Position numbers and translations under genes: made by a program. From contig JARFPM010000012.1 of the NCBI GenBank assembly GCA_030444405.1, positions 1 through 64,000 of the forward strand: a stretch of 64,000 nucleotides of DNA, in the 5' to 3' direction. Origin of the DNA: Nitrospira sp. (GTDB lineage Bacteria; Nitrospirota; Nitrospiria; Nitrospirales; Nitrospiraceae). The first letter of the stretch is position 1, and the number at the start of each line of letters is the position of its first letter. Below, piece by piece: positions 54,592 through 62,524 of the stretch. Below the pieces are notes generated by a model. That model did not search any database. It saw only the letters and a list, made by a program, of their open reading frames with translations, and was not told the DNA's origin.

Positions 54592-56229
54592 TCATTCCAT
54601 ACGTTCATAAACTACGACTTGTCTTCCCGTGCCTATATTCAGCAGCTCAACCTGCTTATACCGCGACTGAGGGTTCTTCGTGAAACATGACAAAACCTGC
54701 TCATCCGGTCGGTCTACAACGAAACGAGGCCCTTTCTGTTCAATCTTTTCACAATACTCTTCTGGTATCGTGGGGATATCAAGCCCCATGGGCTTCCGAA
54801 CCTTCACCCACCAGTTGTTGAAAATGTGCTCCGTATGTGAGGCGTGCGGAAAGCCGTGACGAGATTGATCGAGCGTCCAGTGCAAATACATATGGCTTGG
54901 ATTTAAGAAGTCCACATTAACAAGATGACGCTTCTCGAAATAGTCCTGAAGAGCCGTCCGATCTGCCGCCCATTTATGGGAATAGTCTTTCGAGAGAACA
55001 AGACTCACTACGGCTTGCTTGAAATCACCCCGTACAGCCACCAATAGGGCCGCAGTAAGAAATAACGACAAAGCCACTGCTGCTCTCGGGCCTCTCCCCT
55101 GAAACCATTTGAGCCGAGAAAGCGATGCCATTAAGAATGCGACGGAGATTGTCGCATAGGGAATAAAGAACTGCTGGTAATGCTGCCAAAAATGCTTGCT
55201 CAAGATCATCAATTCTAGCGCGAGCGGCGAAAGAACTACGGCAAAAAGTATATCGATTTTTGAGATTCGGATGTCTGGCGTCTTGCGATCATGATTGCGC
55301 ACCATACCGGCCAAAAACCAGAATGCAAACGCACACCACGCGATAATGACAAAAACGGTAAGATCATTCGCTCTCTTGAATTCACTGAACTCCTTCTGTA
55401 CTACGTCCAGCATAGACATGGGAGTCAATTTCTGAGATAAAAGCTGGAGCCCGTCAAGAAAAGAGTCTATCTGGCCTGTGAGTATGTACGGGCCAGCATT
55501 GAGAATCAGACCGATTATGCCCATTGCAGTTGCCCATAGCAGGAAATCTTGGAATGCTAAAACATACGCCCGGGCCGGTGTGCGGATGGCCGTTGCCTCA
55601 TGAAAAGCCTCAGAAACCACTGCCCCCCGAAGCGCAACCCACAATCCTGCCAGCAAGGCCGGGGCCAAAAAATGCGGTCTCATTGAGACTGCGACGCTCG
55701 CGAAGAATACCGAAACAATGAAGCTGCTCGGCGCACCCCGTAACAAGCCCTTCTTGCCCCCTCCTTTTACTAGCAGCAGAACCGTAGCCAAACTCAGTAG
55801 GGAAGCAGCCATCGGATTGATATGGCTGAGAGAGCCGGGGAGGACTGCAGTAAAGTAGAGATAGAGGGTCGCTGCCGAGAGCGCGATCGCCTGAGATTTT
55901 GAGCTGGGGAGACCCCAATCGCGCGACAAGAGCAGTTTCAATCCCCAATAGAGAGAAAATGCGCCCAAAACAACTGAGAGGATTGAAAGGAACTGCCACA
56001 TCCGTATTGACCCAGCCGCCGCAGGGAGGGCAAAAAGAATCTGAACGACGGGCAGTTTGTCATCGAACTCCCTGGTCCATACCAACTCACCATGCAAGAG
56101 TCGCCCACCGAAGTACATCATGTGATCGATGTCAATGTCGTACTTGGTACCAAGTAAGGTGGCACACACATGCAGGACAAAGATTGAGAACAACACACCT
56201 GCCGGCAGCATCCATAGACGGGGGGTCAT
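54592..56229 (-). CDS. GT-C type polytopic membrane glycosyltransferase-like protein
   Basis: 545 residues, about eleven to twelve membrane helices. The first periplasmic loop has YDIDIDHMMYFGGRLLHGEL and DDKLPVVQILFALPA, where acidic residues occupy the place of the catalytic D-x-D/E-x-D of GT-C enzymes that use polyprenyl-phosphate sugars (ArnT/PMT type). A periplasmic C-terminal domain of about 120 residues follows. It would transfer a lipid-linked sugar in the periplasm. Same strand as the FAD, flippase-like and GT2 genes upstream, 118 nt after the FAD gene. Confidence 0.7.
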   Translation of the reverse strand: MTPRLWMLPAGVLFSIFVLHVCATLLGTKYDIDIDHMMYFGGRLLHGELVWTREFDDKLPVVQILFALPAAAGSIRMWQFLSILSVVLGAFSLYWGLKLLLSRDWGLPSSKSQAIALSAATLYLYFTAVLPGSLSHINPMAASLLSLATVLLLVKGGGKKGLLRGAPSSFIVSVFFASVAVSMRPHFLAPALLAGLWVALRGAVVSEAFHEATAIRTPARAYVLAFQDFLLWATAMGIIGLILNAGPYILTGQIDSFLDGLQLLSQKLTPMSMLDVVQKEFSEFKRANDLTVFVIIAWCAFAFWFLAGMVRNHDRKTPDIRISKIDILFAVVLSPLALELMILSKHFWQHYQQFFIPYATISVAFLMASLSRLKWFQGRGPRAAVALSLFLTAALLVAVRGDFKQAVVSLVLSKDYSHKWAADRTALQDYFEKRHLVNVDFLNPSHMYLHWTLDQSRHGFPHASHTEHIFNNWWVKVRKPMGLDIPTIPEEYCEKIEQKGPRFVVDRPDEQVLSCFTKNPQSRYKQVELLNIGTGRQVVVYERME

Positions 56230-56347
56230 TCTGGCTCCTGTGATTTCTTAGGGGATTAGGCGACTGTGCTCACCAATGCGACTGAGAACGTGGATTTGTT
56301 TGGGACCGCGACGGAAGTCTTACTTATTTATCAGGACAATCTACCCG

Positions 56348-57673
56348 TTACTCCCGTCGATGAAGTGCAGCAATCTGGTGGCCTATTTTTCGACCTTCCC
56401 TGATTGCGTAATTGGTCCCTCTATCTTCGGGGTAGATCTGAGCCATTGAACACAGATGCAGGCCGTCTAAAGGCCCGTCATGCGAGGGAATTAATTCGCT
56501 GTAGTTCCTTACAACCACAGGCTGGGACCAACGTGCGCGCCACAGGTGGTGTGCCTTGATCCAGCTACGACTAAACGTAGGAAACATTTGTTGTAGATAG
56601 GGTAGAGCATAGTCGCGGAACTCATCGGCACTCATATGGTAAAGACGATCGGTATGTGGGAGATATTTGGATAGGTAGACGATGTGGCGGCCACCATAGG
56701 TCTGTGGTCGTTCAAAGTTCGTGTGCTCTATAACACCCACGAAGGGAAATCTCGGATCATTCACATTTAACCAATAAATCCCTGAAAGCGACCGATCGAG
56801 TTCAAGTACCAAACACACATTGCCGAGATATCGAATCTGCTCCAGTGAACGAACATACTGCGGTGGCGCCCAGTGTCGAATCATATCGGCCATCAAGGGC
56901 AGCGCGGTAGTAACAACTACACGATCAGATGTTAGAGTGCCCTGGTTGGTGTCGGCGTACCAACGTCCATCTCGCTGTTGGATAGCTGTCACCGCACTGT
57001 TGACTTCAATGCGCCCACCGAATTGACGGACTCTTTCGGCTAGCGCATGAGCCAATGCAATAAAGCCGCCTTTGAAGTAAGCAAGACGCTCCTCACCGTA
57101 TTTACCACGACTGCTTCCCCGTAGTTTGAGTTTGTTCCAGAACCACACTGCGGATACTTCGTCGGCGTAGGGGCCAAACTTCCCCTTGAGCAGAGGCTCC
57201 CAGACCACTCGGAATACATTGTCCCCACCGAGTTCCTTGAGCCACTCATGGGCTGACTTGCCCTCGAGCTTTCGCCAATCCTTGACTCGGCGCGCACGCA
57301 ACGCCAAGAGACCGAGCCGTATGCGGTCTGGGAGTTTCAGTGGCGTGAAATTCAGGAGGTCCCAAGGAGACGACAGCTTGAAGAACTGGTTCGCGTAATA
57401 GACGCCAGTGTTAGTTGGGCTGATTTCGACGCGGTCGTTTAGACCCAACTCCTCAACCAGCCCCATGACATCGAGATCATTGGTAAACCAATGATGATAA
57501 AAGCGGTCGAGCTGTTCTCCGCCTACATCAAAGGCGGCCGCCAGCCCGCCGATTTCAGGCTCGGCCTCTAAGACAGTGACAGAAATTCCTTTCTTCGCCA
57601 ACTCATAGGCGGCTGCCAATCCAGTAAAACCTCCACCTACGACGGTGACCTGGGTGTTATGATTTATGGTCAT
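56348..57673 (-). CDS. FAD-dependent oxidoreductase of the amine-oxidase/protoporphyrinogen-oxidase type
   Basis: 441 residues. Dinucleotide motif VTVVGGGFTGLAAAYELAKKG near the N-terminus, then VLEAEPEIGGLAAAFDVGG. Central block YHHWFTNDLDVMGLVEELGL and WNKLKLRGSSRGKYGEERLAYFKGGF; the end is NYAIREGRKIGHQIAAL. This subgroup usually sits, as here, with a polyprenyl-phosphate glycosyltransferase and a flippase-like protein, so it likely oxidises a lipid or sugar-lipid intermediate. Exact substrate unknown. Its start overlaps the end of the flippase-like gene by 4 nt. Confidence 0.82.
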   Translation of the reverse strand: MTINHNTQVTVVGGGFTGLAAAYELAKKGISVTVLEAEPEIGGLAAAFDVGGEQLDRFYHHWFTNDLDVMGLVEELGLNDRVEISPTNTGVYYANQFFKLSSPWDLLNFTPLKLPDRIRLGLLALRARRVKDWRKLEGKSAHEWLKELGGDNVFRVVWEPLLKGKFGPYADEVSAVWFWNKLKLRGSSRGKYGEERLAYFKGGFIALAHALAERVRQFGGRIEVNSAVTAIQQRDGRWYADTNQGTLTSDRVVVTTALPLMADMIRHWAPPQYVRSLEQIRYLGNVCLVLELDRSLSGIYWLNVNDPRFPFVGVIEHTNFERPQTYGGRHIVYLSKYLPHTDRLYHMSADEFRDYALPYLQQMFPTFSRSWIKAHHLWRARWSQPVVVRNYSELIPSHDGPLDGLHLCSMAQIYPEDRGTNYAIREGRKIGHQIAALHRRE

Positions 57674-58662
57674 TGCGAAATAGTCTGCGTCAGGAATCTA
57701 TCTTGAACGGGGTAGCACAGCAGATAGAGACCACCTGCAATTGTTGGAGGTAGCCATAGCAATGCATGAACCAATAATGCGTAAGCTGTGGCCGCAGCAA
57801 ACGGATTGCCAAGTACTGTCATGGCCCGAGCTGAAAAGTAATCAAACGTACCGATAAAACCAGGCGTGCTCGGAATTACCGTTGCCAGCGTACCAACGGG
57901 CAGCGCCAACCACGATGCAAGTGGCTGCGTCATCGCTGGCAAGGACAAGGCAGCGAACCAGAAGACTAAGCCCTCAAACAGCCATGCGAGCACTGACCAA
58001 AATAGCAAGCGTATGATGGTGTGACTGCGCGAGGTGTGGTCTAAGGCGACAAAAACATGGTCAACTGAGGTTAATAATTTATGTCCCAACCTCGGCAGAA
58101 CACCAGTTGCGACGCTCACTAGCCCTGACGCGAGTGGTTTGAAAGAGGCTGGGAAGAGCAAGATGAACAAGATAACCACGCTACCCACGACCAAGATGCC
58201 GCCACTCAGCCCCATGAAACGTGACGACTCTACTCCAAACCAGGACAAGGTGGCGCCAAATAGGGACACCATCATCAATAGGTCCAGCAGTCTTTCGACC
58301 AACAAAGTTGTCAACGATGTCGTTGCTTTAATACCTAGCCTGCGGTTAAACCCAAATGCGCGTAGGATGTCTCCAGCCCTTAACGGTAATAGATTATTGG
58401 CGGCTACGCTCGCCATCAATGGTCCGGCACAGTGCTTCCACTCCAACTTCGGGTTTTCCGAAAGAAGCATCAGGCGCCAGCGCTGGATGCGGCAGGCGTA
58501 GCCACTGTAGAACGCTAGCACAGCTGCTCCTAACCACCAGCCGTTGGCTTCGGCGAAGGTGGCTTTCACTTCACTCAATTGGATATGTCGAAAAAGTAGC
58601 CACAGGAAAAAGCCTGTGAGCGCCATACCACCGAATAGGCGTAACCATCTCCGTGCGTTCAC
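57670..58662 (-). CDS. Lysylphosphatidylglycerol-synthase TM/flippase-like membrane protein (UPF0104)
   Basis: 330 residues with about eight membrane helices. Conserved blocks: LLPLRAGDILRAFGFNRRLG, LVERLLDLLMM and VIPSTPGFIGTFDYFSARAM, the signature of the LPG_synthase_TM family (PF03706). Stand-alone members are thought to act as lipid-carrier flippases. Both ends overlap neighbouring genes by 4 nt (with GT2 upstream and FAD oxidoreductase downstream), so the three are translated together. Confidence 0.87.
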   Translation of the reverse strand: MNARRWLRLFGGMALTGFFLWLLFRHIQLSEVKATFAEANGWWLGAAVLAFYSGYACRIQRWRLMLLSENPKLEWKHCAGPLMASVAANNLLPLRAGDILRAFGFNRRLGIKATTSLTTLLVERLLDLLMMVSLFGATLSWFGVESSRFMGLSGGILVVGSVVILFILLFPASFKPLASGLVSVATGVLPRLGHKLLTSVDHVFVALDHTSRSHTIIRLLFWSVLAWLFEGLVFWFAALSLPAMTQPLASWLALPVGTLATVIPSTPGFIGTFDYFSARAMTVLGNPFAAATAYALLVHALLWLPPTIAGGLYLLCYPVQDRFLTQTISQ

Positions 58663-59666
58663 TTAATCACATGCACCGGACTACGTGAAACCGTGGGCTG
58701 CTTTTCCGTGAATCCTGTGTATTCTTGCACCACGTATAGGGGCCGACCCTTGATCTCGTTATAAATTCGGCCAACGTACTCGCCAAGGATGCCTAAGCTG
58801 ATCAGTTGCACGCCACCAATGAACAAGACCGCGATCATCAGAGCTGTCCAGCCCTCAACCCAGATGTTGGTGAACAACCTCAGTGTCACGGCGTAAACAA
58901 TCCCCGCCATGGCCATTACGGCGGATATCATTCCCATAGCGACCGATGCCTGGAGTGGTTTGGTTGAAAACGATAAGATCCCGTCCGTCGCAAAGCGCAC
59001 CATTTTTCGAAGCGGATACTTGCTCTCACCTGCAAATCGCTTCGCTCTGATATACGGCAAAGCCGTTTGTTTGAAGCCGACCCAACTCACCATGCCACGG
59101 ACAAAGCGGTCACGTTCAGGCATTGCCCTCAGGGTGTCGACCACATTGCGATTCATCAAACGAAAGTCTCCCGTATCGAGCGGGATTGGGATGTCGGAGA
59201 GTTTATTCAGTAGTCGATAGAAAGCACGGGCTGTAGCTAACTTGAAAACCGATTCGCCCGGCCGCTCGGTCCGAGTGCCGTAAACAACGTCGTAGCCTTC
59301 GCGCCACTTTTCGATCATTTGATGTATGACTTCAGGTGGATCTTGAAGATCGGCATCGATCAGAACCACGATATCGCCGCTGGATGCATCTATTCCTGCC
59401 GTAACGGCTATTTGATGACCAAAGTTCCTTGCAAAACCAACTACTTTGATACGAGGATCTTGCGCTGCGAATTCTTTTAATATGTCTCTGGTGCAGTCGC
59501 GACTTCCGTCGTCTACGAAAATCAACTCGACGTTCAGATCCTGCACTTCATCACAAAATTGGCGCAGGCGTTTAACCGTTTCACGTATTGCCTCTTGTTC
59601 GTTGTAACAGGGTATGACTAGTGACAACGAAGCGTCGGGGAGTGAGATGCTTTGTCTGTTATTCAT
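58659..59666 (-). CDS. GT2-family polyprenyl-phosphate glycosyltransferase (GtrB/DPM1-like)
   Basis: 335 residues from ATG 59666; ATG 59696 would add ten residues with no better ribosome site. GT-A motifs: LSLVIPCYNEQEAIRETVKR, LIFVDDGSRDCT, NFGHQIAVTAGIDAS, VVLIDADLQDPPEVI (the D-x-D), and GESKYPLRKMVRFATDG. Two C-terminal membrane helices (MGMISAVMAMAGIVYAVTL and MIAVLFIGGVQLISLGILGEY). It would transfer glucose, mannose or a similar sugar from a nucleotide to polyprenyl phosphate at the inner face of the membrane, supplying the GT-C protein downstream. Confidence 0.92.
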   Translation of the reverse strand: MNNRQSISLPDASLSLVIPCYNEQEAIRETVKRLRQFCDEVQDLNVELIFVDDGSRDCTRDILKEFAAQDPRIKVVGFARNFGHQIAVTAGIDASSGDIVVLIDADLQDPPEVIHQMIEKWREGYDVVYGTRTERPGESVFKLATARAFYRLLNKLSDIPIPLDTGDFRLMNRNVVDTLRAMPERDRFVRGMVSWVGFKQTALPYIRAKRFAGESKYPLRKMVRFATDGILSFSTKPLQASVAMGMISAVMAMAGIVYAVTLRLFTNIWVEGWTALMIAVLFIGGVQLISLGILGEYVGRIYNEIKGRPLYVVQEYTGFTEKQPTVSRSPVHVIK

Positions 59667-60079
59667 TGACGGTGACAGTCTCCGGCCGCCCAGCAAGCGT
59701 CAGAGCGTTCTTGCGATGACATCCTTGTTTCGACATGCCAGCTAACACTGCGCAAAACACCACAATTGTCCAGTCGTCCAGTGATATGCATCCGTGCACT
59801 CTTTGATGACCAGAGCTTGCGATCGGTGTGCCAATTTGCCCCAATGTAAGCGAGAACTTTCTCCCTATTCAAGCAAGAGTCCTCAGTCTGTGAAGACGGG
59901 GGTGAGGGCAAGGTCGTTCGAAGCAAGACGAGCCCCGCCCGTAATCATTGAGGACCTCACCTGTTAAGCAGGGGAATCCATGAGACAGTGGCGGCATTTT
60001 CAAACAGGTTCTAGGCAGCTATCTACGCATCTATGCTCCAACCAATAATTCAGGCGAAAACGGCGATAACTGGGGCACT
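59667..60079 (-). other. Gap between the GMC oxidoreductase and the glycosyltransferase operon
   Basis: No gene recognised on either strand; several short frames lack family features. It should contain the promoter of the GT2 operon, but no clear hexamer pair was found. Confidence 0.4.
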
Positions 60080-61513
60080 TCAGGAATTCCGCAAATGTTC
60101 CGACAATCGCAATGCGAGCTGAACAATCGTGAGTGTTGGGTTGGCTGATCCGCCTGATGGAAAAACTGATGAGCCAGCGATGTACAGGTTCTCTTGTCCA
60201 AATACGCGACAATTTGAATCCACAACACCATTCTTGACCGTGTCTGCCATTCGAGTACCGCCCATGTGGTGATAACCAGCGCCTGAATCGTTCGTCACGC
60301 GGTAATCGGGGAAACCATCATTGCTAAACACCCAATTAGTAAACTTGATACGTCCGAGATTCCTGGCCATCACATAATCATTGAACTGAGAGAGAGATTT
60401 CCGTAGAGTAGCAAGATCTCGATCCGTTTTTTTCCAATGAAGCTCCGTCAACGGAATTCCAAACCGGTCACGCTTCGTCTCGGATAGCTTCACATGATTG
60501 TCCCAAATAGGCTCTTGTTCCCAGTCTGCAAAGAGGGTCGTCCCACACACGAGATTCTTCCCTACTCGCGAAGCGGCCCATGCGCCCGCTTTCGGCGCAA
60601 CGCATAAAAGGTCGCGAACTAGAGCCTGTGTGCCTTCACGTGGCAGTTCTCTTACCCAGAATCGGCAATCTAACGTCGATAACTTTCTTTTTACCGCGTC
60701 TGTTAAACCGACCAAGCGCATCTTAGTCTTCGCCATTTCGAGCTGAACGAGCGCATGACCGACCCTGAAGGAGGGGTGCTCCATCCAATAGTGGCCTAAC
60801 GGCGCTCGAGGGTCAACGCATTTCCCCTTTGTCTGATGATTGCTCCACAGAAGCATCCGGCTGTTTTCTATTCCCCCCATCGCTAAAATGAAGTGTTTCG
60901 CCTTGACGTTGGCCGATTGCCCAAAAAAGTTAGTAGCCGTTACACTCACTACACGTTGGCCATCTGTTTTCAAGCCCGTTAGGTTGGCGTTGGTAACGTA
61001 GGTGACGTGTTTCGACGCATTCAGTCTCTCCCGATATTTTTCACCAAACCGAACTTGCGAATACGAAATACCAATTTCTTTGATACCAAATTCCTGATCC
61101 AACACAATGTCATCTTGTGGTTGCCGAATATCGAGAATAGACAGCGCTTTTTTCAAGAAGGGGTCTAGGCCTTTCTTTTCTATTGGCCAGTGAGCATTCT
61201 CAAACCCCTCCTTCTTTTGGAAATCACTTTCGCCTAATGGCACGCAGTGTCCATCCCAATGGCCACTCGTACCACCAAGATATCGAAGCCGAGCAGAATC
61301 AAGTTCGAAGTAGGGGTCCCCTATCACATCCCCCTTATAAATGTCCTGAGATTCATCGCTCTGATGAAGTCCACCTCCCTCTAAGAGAATAACTGAACGA
61401 CCATAGTCTCCAAGTTCTAATGCGACAGTCATTCCGGCAGGTCCTGATCCCACCACACAAAAGTCTGCAATCTTTGGGAGGCCATTTACCGAAAGGCTGA
61501 AATCAATATGCAT
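60080..61513 (-). CDS. GMC-family FAD oxidoreductase
   Basis: 477 residues. FAD motif FCVVGSGPAGMTVALELGDYG, then LEGGG; substrate-side blocks LRYLGGTSGHWDGHCVPL and AHWPIEKKGLDPFLKKA; HFILAMGGIENSRMLL; and the C-terminal GMC signature GYHHMGGTRMADTV ... NLYIAGSSVFPSGGSANPTLTIVQLALRLSEHL with the catalytic His. No signal peptide of its own. It starts at ATG 61513-61511, overlapping the TAA of a 47-residue Tat-signal protein by one base, which suggests co-translation and possibly co-export. It oxidises an alcohol or sugar; substrate unknown. Confidence 0.88.
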   Translation of the reverse strand: MHIDFSLSVNGLPKIADFCVVGSGPAGMTVALELGDYGRSVILLEGGGLHQSDESQDIYKGDVIGDPYFELDSARLRYLGGTSGHWDGHCVPLGESDFQKKEGFENAHWPIEKKGLDPFLKKALSILDIRQPQDDIVLDQEFGIKEIGISYSQVRFGEKYRERLNASKHVTYVTNANLTGLKTDGQRVVSVTATNFFGQSANVKAKHFILAMGGIENSRMLLWSNHQTKGKCVDPRAPLGHYWMEHPSFRVGHALVQLEMAKTKMRLVGLTDAVKRKLSTLDCRFWVRELPREGTQALVRDLLCVAPKAGAWAASRVGKNLVCGTTLFADWEQEPIWDNHVKLSETKRDRFGIPLTELHWKKTDRDLATLRKSLSQFNDYVMARNLGRIKFTNWVFSNDGFPDYRVTNDSGAGYHHMGGTRMADTVKNGVVDSNCRVFGQENLYIAGSSVFPSGGSANPTLTIVQLALRLSEHLRNS

Positions 61514-61656
61514 TAAACATCTCCTGTTTGTAGCACCCAGCCTTGTTTAATGAATCTTCCACTCCTGCTGCTATGAGCATTGCCGGAAATACGAGTGAGC
61601 AGAACCATTTGGCTGAGCAATAACGCTCCGATCAAGAATCCTCTGCGTGAACACAT
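61513..61656 (-). CDS. 47-residue twin-arginine signal protein coupled to the GMC oxidoreductase
   Basis: ATG 61656 follows a very strong AAAGGAGGTGAAGAAC site. The chain begins MCSRRGFLIGALLLSQMVLL, a textbook Tat signal (S-R-R-x-F-L), and ends RSGRFIKQGWVLQTGDV. TAA 61513-61515 overlaps the next ATG as TAATG. Larger Tat-exported partner subunits accompany GMC dehydrogenases (gluconate-2-dehydrogenase subunit 3 type); this looks like a minimal version that could carry the oxidoreductase out by the hitch-hiker route. The 299 bases upstream (61657-61955) show no gene apart from its ribosome site. Confidence 0.65.
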   Translation of the reverse strand: MCSRRGFLIGALLLSQMVLLTRISGNAHSSRSGRFIKQGWVLQTGDV

Positions 61657-61955
61657 GTTCTTCACCTCCTTTGACTATCTCGCCGTCCGCTCGTTAACAC
61701 TCTGGAGATCCCAGCCCAAGCAGCATTTTGATCGAAGGCATTCTGAAAGCGCTCTTTCCATCCCACAACGCGATGGCTTTCTCCTTCTCATATCATCCAT
61801 CAAGAATGTCCACACTCCCCATCGGATGCATTTAGGGGATCTCCCTACCAATATCGAGGTCCCTGGTCAAGTCCTTTTTCCCGTAAAAGCTGTCATGGCG
61901 CTGATTGCTCCGGCGATGGTCATCACGCGACATGACTTTGCGCATGATACTGCTC

Positions 61956-62147
61956 TCAGTGAATCGCATCCAGCTCGCGCCAGCGCTGTGAGGCTGTCAG
62001 CATTGTGGCGAACACCAGCTTCAAACAGGCTCTCTCCGTTTTAGGAGAGCGTACGAACCTCGAAGCCGCAAAGCTAATGCCGACACCAATCAAAACCGCC
62101 CAGCTCGCTGTATCAATAACGGCAAATACAAGCTGGCCGTCGTTCAT
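61956..62147 (-). CDS. Possible small membrane protein
   Basis: 63 residues from ATG 62147, whose ATGA overlaps the end of the UbiA/HAD pseudogene. One hydrophobic helix (LVFAVIDTASWAVLIGVGIS, then FAASRFV) and a charged C-terminus (RSPKTERACLK). No family recognised. The overlap is the only support for translation; it may equally be a leftover of the pseudogene's operon. Confidence 0.35.
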   Translation of the reverse strand: MNDGQLVFAVIDTASWAVLIGVGISFAASRFVRSPKTERACLKLVFATMLTASQRWRELDAIH

Positions 62148-62524
62148 AAGTCCTCTATGTGCGTCGAACCGTATCCAACTAACAGGTGGCCTGCGATCCG
62201 TTGTGCCACATTGATATTTGTGGCTGTACAGAGCACCAATCTATGCCCAAGTGTTTTTTGCTGTTTCAGCCAGTCGATTAGCTGAATGTTGTAAGGTAAA
62301 GTCGCTGGATTTAACTCAACGGAGTCTGCCAACTTCTGCTTTACAAATGTCTTTCCGACAAGCAATCAAAATAGAGGATAGGGAACGGAAATGGTTTTAT
62401 CACGAAGTGACTGCAAAGCAGATTCATGTAGGATATCGGTATGGCGAAGTGACCCATCCAAATCAACCACTATCATAATCTCCGTGTTGCTTTCCAGGGC
62501 AGGCCGCTCATGCGTGTAGGCCAT
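62144..62524 (-). pseudogene. UbiA prenyltransferase with HAD domain, N-terminal fragment with nonsense codon
   Basis: Minus strand from ATG 62524: IMIVVDLDGSLRHTDILHES, the D-x-D-G motif of a HAD phosphatase domain, up to VPYPLF and TGA (62366-62368). The same frame continues LLVGKTFVKQKLADSVELNP, ATLPYNIQLIDWLKQQKTLG and HRLVLCTATNINVAQRIAGH, matching HAD-UbiA proteins that read P-L-W-L-L at the stop position (TGG to TGA). The frame ends at TGA 62144-62146, so all of the UbiA membrane domain is missing. Family members attach a sugar-phosphate to decaprenyl phosphate. Confidence 0.65.

Follow-up and report, generated by a model that had tools for sequence, protein, structure and literature searches.

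A 47-residue Tat-signal protein encoded in overlap with a GMC oxidoreductase of Nitrospira is a putative minimal Tat hitchhiker subunit

Introduction

Why should an oxidoreductase that has no export signal be encoded directly behind, and in overlap with, the gene for a 47-residue protein that carries a twin-arginine (Tat) signal? This arrangement is found in Nitrospira sp. (GCA_030444405.1), in the stretch of 64,000 nucleotides of contig JARFPM010000012.1 that was analyzed here and is referred to as the window. Tat hitchhiker pairs, in which the signal on one partner serves a folded, signal-less partner, are known from the subunits of [NiFe]-hydrogenase and from PaoABC (PMC10924467; PMC4273604). 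The comparisons described below address what so small a protein is likely to do for the GMC enzyme with which it is paired, and how widely the pair occurs.

Architecture of the locus

The minus-strand frame that runs from 61656 down to 61513 specifies a product of 47 aa, MCSRRGFLIGALLLSQMVLLTRISGNAHSSRSGRFIKQGWVLQTGDV* (Table 1). Directly ahead of its ATG lies AAAGGAGGTGAAGAAC, a strong Shine-Dalgarno sequence, and because an alternative GTG three codons earlier falls within this element, the ATG is the likely start. An AGGAG that serves the GMC gene sits inside the 3′ end of the small frame. The GMC protein reads MHIDFSLSVNGLPKIADFCVVGSGPAG, so that it begins directly with its Rossmann motif and lacks an export signal. 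The preliminary description of the locus, which had reported a 47-residue protein with a strong ribosome site and an S-R-R-x-F-L signal, is borne out in its frame, its ribosome site and its motif (S-R-R-G-F-L), and the TAATG junction that it placed between this protein and a signal-less FAD oxidoreductase is indeed a one-base overlap.

Table 1. Coordinates of the features of the small gene and its GMC neighbor in the window
Feature	Position	Strand	Remarks
Mini Tat-signal protein (putative hitchhiker)	61513..61656	-	SRRGFL motif, hydrophobic stretch, C-terminal tail GRFIKQGWVLQTGDV
C-terminal tail GWVLQTGDV, putative docking segment	61516..61542	-	W and D invariant (31 aligned relatives); low-confidence predicted beta-hairpin
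Shine-Dalgarno region AAAGGAGGTGAAGAAC, 5′ of the small ORF	61657..61672	-	Same box as AAAAGGAGGTGAAGAGC in Nitrospira BO4
TAATG stop/start overlap, translational coupling	61511..61515	-	One base common to the small ORF's TAA and the GMC start codon ATG
GMC oxidoreductase, 477 aa, without signal peptide	60080..61513	-	Starts in TAATG; H85 aligned to BcGDH His105

The GMC_oxred_C domain (PF05199) scores well above its cut-off in this enzyme (94.9 versus 24.6 bits). The best Foldseek matches are fructose dehydrogenase (FDH) and FAD-GDH, with pyranose oxidase also among the closest solved folds, and the modeled fold points to a sugar or an alcohol as the probable class of substrate. In an alignment to FAD-GDH, the 3Fe-4S cysteine cluster is absent from the window enzyme, in which the corresponding stretch is short. 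The nearest relative, at 82% identity, is the GMC of Nitrospira sp. BO4; the other searched genomes of the same order contain distant GMCs only.

On the minus strand of the window, at 62082-62524, lies the remnant of a broken HAD-UbiA prenyltransferase gene that has lost most of its UbiA part and that matches the intact HAD-UbiA of a related locus, L062, with 41% identity over 54 aa (tblastn, E=3e-7). Elsewhere, at loci of separate lineages (L044, L057, L062, L042, L077, L005), the GMC gene is found near genes for a DprE1-like FAD oxidase, an SDR and/or a UbiA or HAD-UbiA prenyltransferase. These neighbors, and the UbiA remnant in the window, offer a hint of a polyprenyl-phosphate sugar pathway around GMC loci. 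Downstream of the pair in the window is a tightly packed minus-strand run of genes (54592-59696) encoding a GT2 glycosyltransferase, an LPG-synthase-type membrane protein, an FAD amine-oxidase-like protein and a large multi-span membrane protein; the run is not shared with Nitrospira BO4.

The pair in other genomes

When genome contigs were scanned with the GMC sequence, 80 loci were found, more than half of them from Mesorhizobium and the others including Ruegeria, Sneathiella, Pelagibacteraceae, Vreelandella (Halomonas), Burkholderiales and Nitrospira. At 77 of the loci, a small frame that ends at the GMC start encodes twin arginines and a hydrophobic stretch, together with a tail of the form W-[ILV]-[LI]-x3-D (at one of these 77, L062, the signal part of the small frame is masked). 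The junction is a 4-nt overlap in 55 cases and a 1-nt overlap in 14, while the two frames abut in five, stand 1 nt apart in two and 19 nt apart in one, which places 76 of the 77 junctions within -4 to +1 nt. The encoded proteins, here called mini partners, are 38-67 aa long, with a median of 51. Each exception has its own setting: L055, without a small frame, lies where its contig ends; L079 is the later of two GMCs in tandem, the small gene belonging to the first copy; and L097 is an extra GMC about 5 kb from a complete pair, apparently on the same contig, as placed by contig coordinates. Because 77 of the 80 relatives have a counterpart, the pairing of small frame and GMC is not chance. In the preliminary description, a missing small frame upstream of orthologous oxidoreductases had been named as the observation that would speak against its reading; when this was checked, the frame proved to be present almost throughout, with near-constant coupling.

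Searched with a profile of the small proteins, the window's own genome yields this gene alone (1.8e-11; next match, 0.2). Full-length profile matches in other genomes adjoin a GMC gene, once downstream instead of upstream, and weaker matches correspond to ordinary Tat signals. One candidate for an orphan small gene, L137, was rejected, as it sits downstream of its GMC gene. In a Rhodospirillum-like genome (G068), two pairs of mini partner and GMC (L126 and L122) lie side by side. Comparison of the gene neighborhoods revealed no conserved operon neighbor, other than the GMC, that is common to separate lineages.

The small proteins share a simple layout, in which twin arginines and a hydrophobic stretch are followed by a C-terminal xGW[ILV]L-x3-D. 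The W, the D and one arginine of the pair are invariant among 31 aligned mini partners; the other arginine and the L are nearly so. From 48 Mesorhizobium-type pairs, we obtained dN/dS values of 0.13 in the tail (last 17 codons), 0.35 in the Tat part and 0.083 in a segment of the GMC gene; between the window and BO4, the 47 codons of the small gene give a weak estimate of 0.73, and the last nine residues are identical. The tail has the lowest dN/dS within the small gene and its last nine residues are unchanged in BO4, and so it is, by these measures, the most constrained portion of the small protein, under purifying selection in Mesorhizobium. Judged from its pattern of substitution, the small gene encodes a real protein.

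Longer partners and the phylogeny of the enzymes

Tat proteins of 114-141 aa are paired with GMCs that are about 30-37% identical to the window enzyme, in Nitrospirales and Alphaproteobacteria; their genes stand upstream or downstream of the GMC gene, and the frames often overlap. These uncatalogued long partners (L004, L166, L169, L180, L187, L197 and others) resemble the mini partners in having a Tat signal, an adjoining or overlapping GMC gene and a C-terminal V-x-x-D-G-W-x-L, but differ from them in an extra helical middle of about 60-80 aa, in a C-terminal TEARLCALAAL and in a position that is often downstream of the GMC gene. Their C-termini, of which DTVVIDGWILARTEARLCALAALG, DTVYVDGWTLSRTEARLYALAS and QTAHINGWVLSVTEARQCALF are examples, feature an ending of DGWxLSRTEA that is akin to the mini tail. 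When a profile built from the long tails is applied to the mini tails, 12 of 31 exceed 5 bits, a threshold passed by 0.5% of the tails after shuffling and by 0.4% of the decoy C-termini. When full-length mini and long proteins are compared profile to profile, the alignment is confined to the Tat part; a comparison of tail windows scored better, with the bias that these windows had been picked by motif. The mini partner looks like a long form from which the middle and the last helix are missing, a putative link that rests on a short motif.

The long-partner profile was also run over 372 genomes of the class, in which it found additional long partners that adjoin GMCs, as well as one hitchhiker-like protein, L218 (G148; DVAGWRLSRTEARVYAVVAKRA), that has no GMC gene adjacent to it. 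Another partner, L178 (G117), is encoded downstream of its GMC and ends in LLILDGWVLSEKDLK; at 79 aa, its length lies between those of the mini and long forms.

A tree of 65 GMCs groups all 38 enzymes with mini partners in one clade (SH-aLRT 100); for the others either a long partner or none was seen. The existence of a single mini-partnered clade suggests a single reduction of the partner, in which the mini form presumably arose from a longer hitchhiker. The window and BO4 enzymes are placed among Pseudomonadota in this tree, which suggests horizontal transfer. Median GMC length is 478 aa with a mini partner, 525 aa with a long partner and 550 aa without a partner.

Partners and the flavinylation histidine

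His105 of Burkholderia FAD-GDH is deemed to be covalently bound to FAD (PMC6719666), and H85 of the window GMC, within GGTSGHW, aligns with this residue. The histidine is present in all 38 GMCs with a mini partner and in 15 of 16 with a long partner. The only histidine-bearing enzyme among 11 scored as partnerless, L203, was rejected as such when a long partner was found for it; with L203 counted as partnered, the histidine occurs in 54 of 55 GMCs that have a Tat partner versus none of the 10 that do not. It is likewise present in all six of a further group of partnered GMCs from outside the set in which the rule was found. Partner and flavinylation histidine thus appear to go together, as a strong pattern rather than a formal proof, with few independent changes on the tree and a formal tree test that was not decisive. 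The link fits export of an enzyme that has been folded and loaded with flavin in the cytoplasm.

Nitrospira also contains GMCs of about 550-570 aa without a Tat partner (L006, L007, L008, L010), which have Cys, Leu or Arg at the position of the flavinylation histidine. Two of these, L007 and L008, sit among sugar-processing genes (aldo-keto reductase, epimerase).

Discussion

The small proteins bear twin arginines (31 aligned), while the GMC starts straight at its Rossmann fold, so that one partner has a signal and the other does not; the host genome contains two TatC genes. The 47-aa protein is likely to be a minimal Tat hitchhiker subunit. Coupled translation would yield the small protein and the GMC together, and the C-terminal tail ([ND]GWxLxxxD), probably a short beta-hairpin, would dock on the folded, FAD-loaded enzyme in the cytoplasm. 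The twin-arginine signal would then take the complex through the Tat translocase. Conceivably, the small protein remains afterwards as a membrane tether, because many members are without a conserved cleavage site close to the tail. Binding, co-export, the periplasmic site and tethering are the parts of this scheme that we infer. The role of dedicated export carrier or subunit that the preliminary description had assigned to the small protein gains support from the pairing at 77 of 80 loci and from the coupling, co-export being the predicted part of it.

Two AlphaFold2 runs were made on read-through pairs, in which one stop codon is read as glycine, an artefact of joining two chains. The second alignment (A4) consisted of read-through rows only, the small-only rows in the first (A1) having been misaligned onto the GMC. 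The small part reaches a pLDDT of about 45-62, with no confident interface; both models contain the tail hairpin, with strands 26-29 and 32-35 around Asn30-Gly31, at a pLDDT near 55.

A short protein with one hydrophobic stretch might instead be a permanent single-helix membrane anchor of the GMC, with the enzyme at the cytoplasmic face and export secondary or absent. Such an anchor would be in keeping with the patchy occurrence of a loose signal-peptidase-like [AVSGT]xA triplet between signal and tail, which is present in only 45 of 76 mini partners and is not common to the window gene and that of BO4. However, a plain anchor has no need of conserved twin arginines, and if the arginines stay inside, the tail comes to lie outside, beyond the reach of a cytoplasmic GMC; moreover, the longer, homologous-looking partners are typical Tat subunits. 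We therefore regard an anchor as unlikely.

A still less probable explanation is that the small protein works on its own in the periplasm or membrane and has nothing but an operon in common with the GMC. Physical interaction between the two is itself a proposal, which suits this explanation, but no further neighbor is conserved between lineages, the pair is kept across many families, and the type of partner tracks the phylogeny of the GMC. The strong Shine-Dalgarno sequence and the TAATG/ATGA overlap of nearly all pairs would be equally expected of a leader peptide or translational coupler that merely sets GMC expression. Against this stand the constraint at the protein level, which is strongest in the C-terminal tail, and the position of the gene downstream of the GMC in G148 and G117, as for many long partners; a gene so placed cannot act as a leader, and a leader role is highly improbable overall. 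For the hitchhiker reading of the window protein, an extension to the whole GMC clade seems somewhat favored on balance: its members would use a detached Tat signal peptide, a separate polypeptide of 38-67 aa that binds via a hairpin tail of about 10 residues and that would be the most reduced form in a family of GMC export partners, uncatalogued so far, that is linked to covalent flavinylation.

By analogy, the nearest precedent for the mini tail is the C-terminal loop of FAD-GDH gamma. The small subunit of FAD-GDH is a Tat hitchhiker, and its C-terminal loop, which contains Trp159, lies packed against the catalytic subunit (PMC6719666). Burkholderia cepacia FAD-GDH (BcGDH; gamma-alpha; 6a2u, 8grj; PMC6719666) and Gluconobacter fructose dehydrogenase resemble the window pair in combining a signal-less GMC catalytic subunit with a separate small Tat subunit, and BcGDH does so further in the Trp-containing C-terminal segment that packs on the enzyme and in the aligned covalent-FAD histidine. 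However, BcGDH gamma has 168 aa (121 mature) and five helices, whereas the window protein has 47 aa and no globular domain, and the 3Fe-4S cysteine cluster and c-heme subunit of BcGDH are not seen at the window locus. Homology of the mini partners to BcGDH gamma was considered and rejected: the best PDB match of one profile was non-significant (E=0.19) and was not reproduced with another set. [NiFe]-hydrogenase and PaoABC differ in that the carrier is itself a folded redox subunit, whereas a mini partner is approximately a signal plus a tail.

No family in Pfam or NCBIfam covers the small proteins, which give only weak matches to Tat-signal models, and no significant match to them was found in the PDB, nor any paper in the literature that describes a mini Tat partner for a GMC; the annotation of example relatives reads hypothetical protein. 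Hitchhiker export is known, but a carrier cut down to a signal and a tail of about 10 residues, serving a defined GMC clade, is something that we did not find in the databases and literature searched.

If the detached-signal reading is true, the mini partner would be, to our knowledge, the smallest natural hitchhiker carrier. Such a case suggests that a protein can be exported by a Tat signal peptide that belongs neither to it nor to a folded subunit, and that a helper of 40 residues may suffice. The mini tail could be put to use as a compact, portable tag for moving folded proteins through Tat. Where the small gene is unannotated, GMCs of the mini-partnered clade may have been wrongly assigned to the cytoplasm, and the link between partner and flavinylation histidine would make it possible to tell from sequence, by a simple rule, which GMC enzymes are exported.
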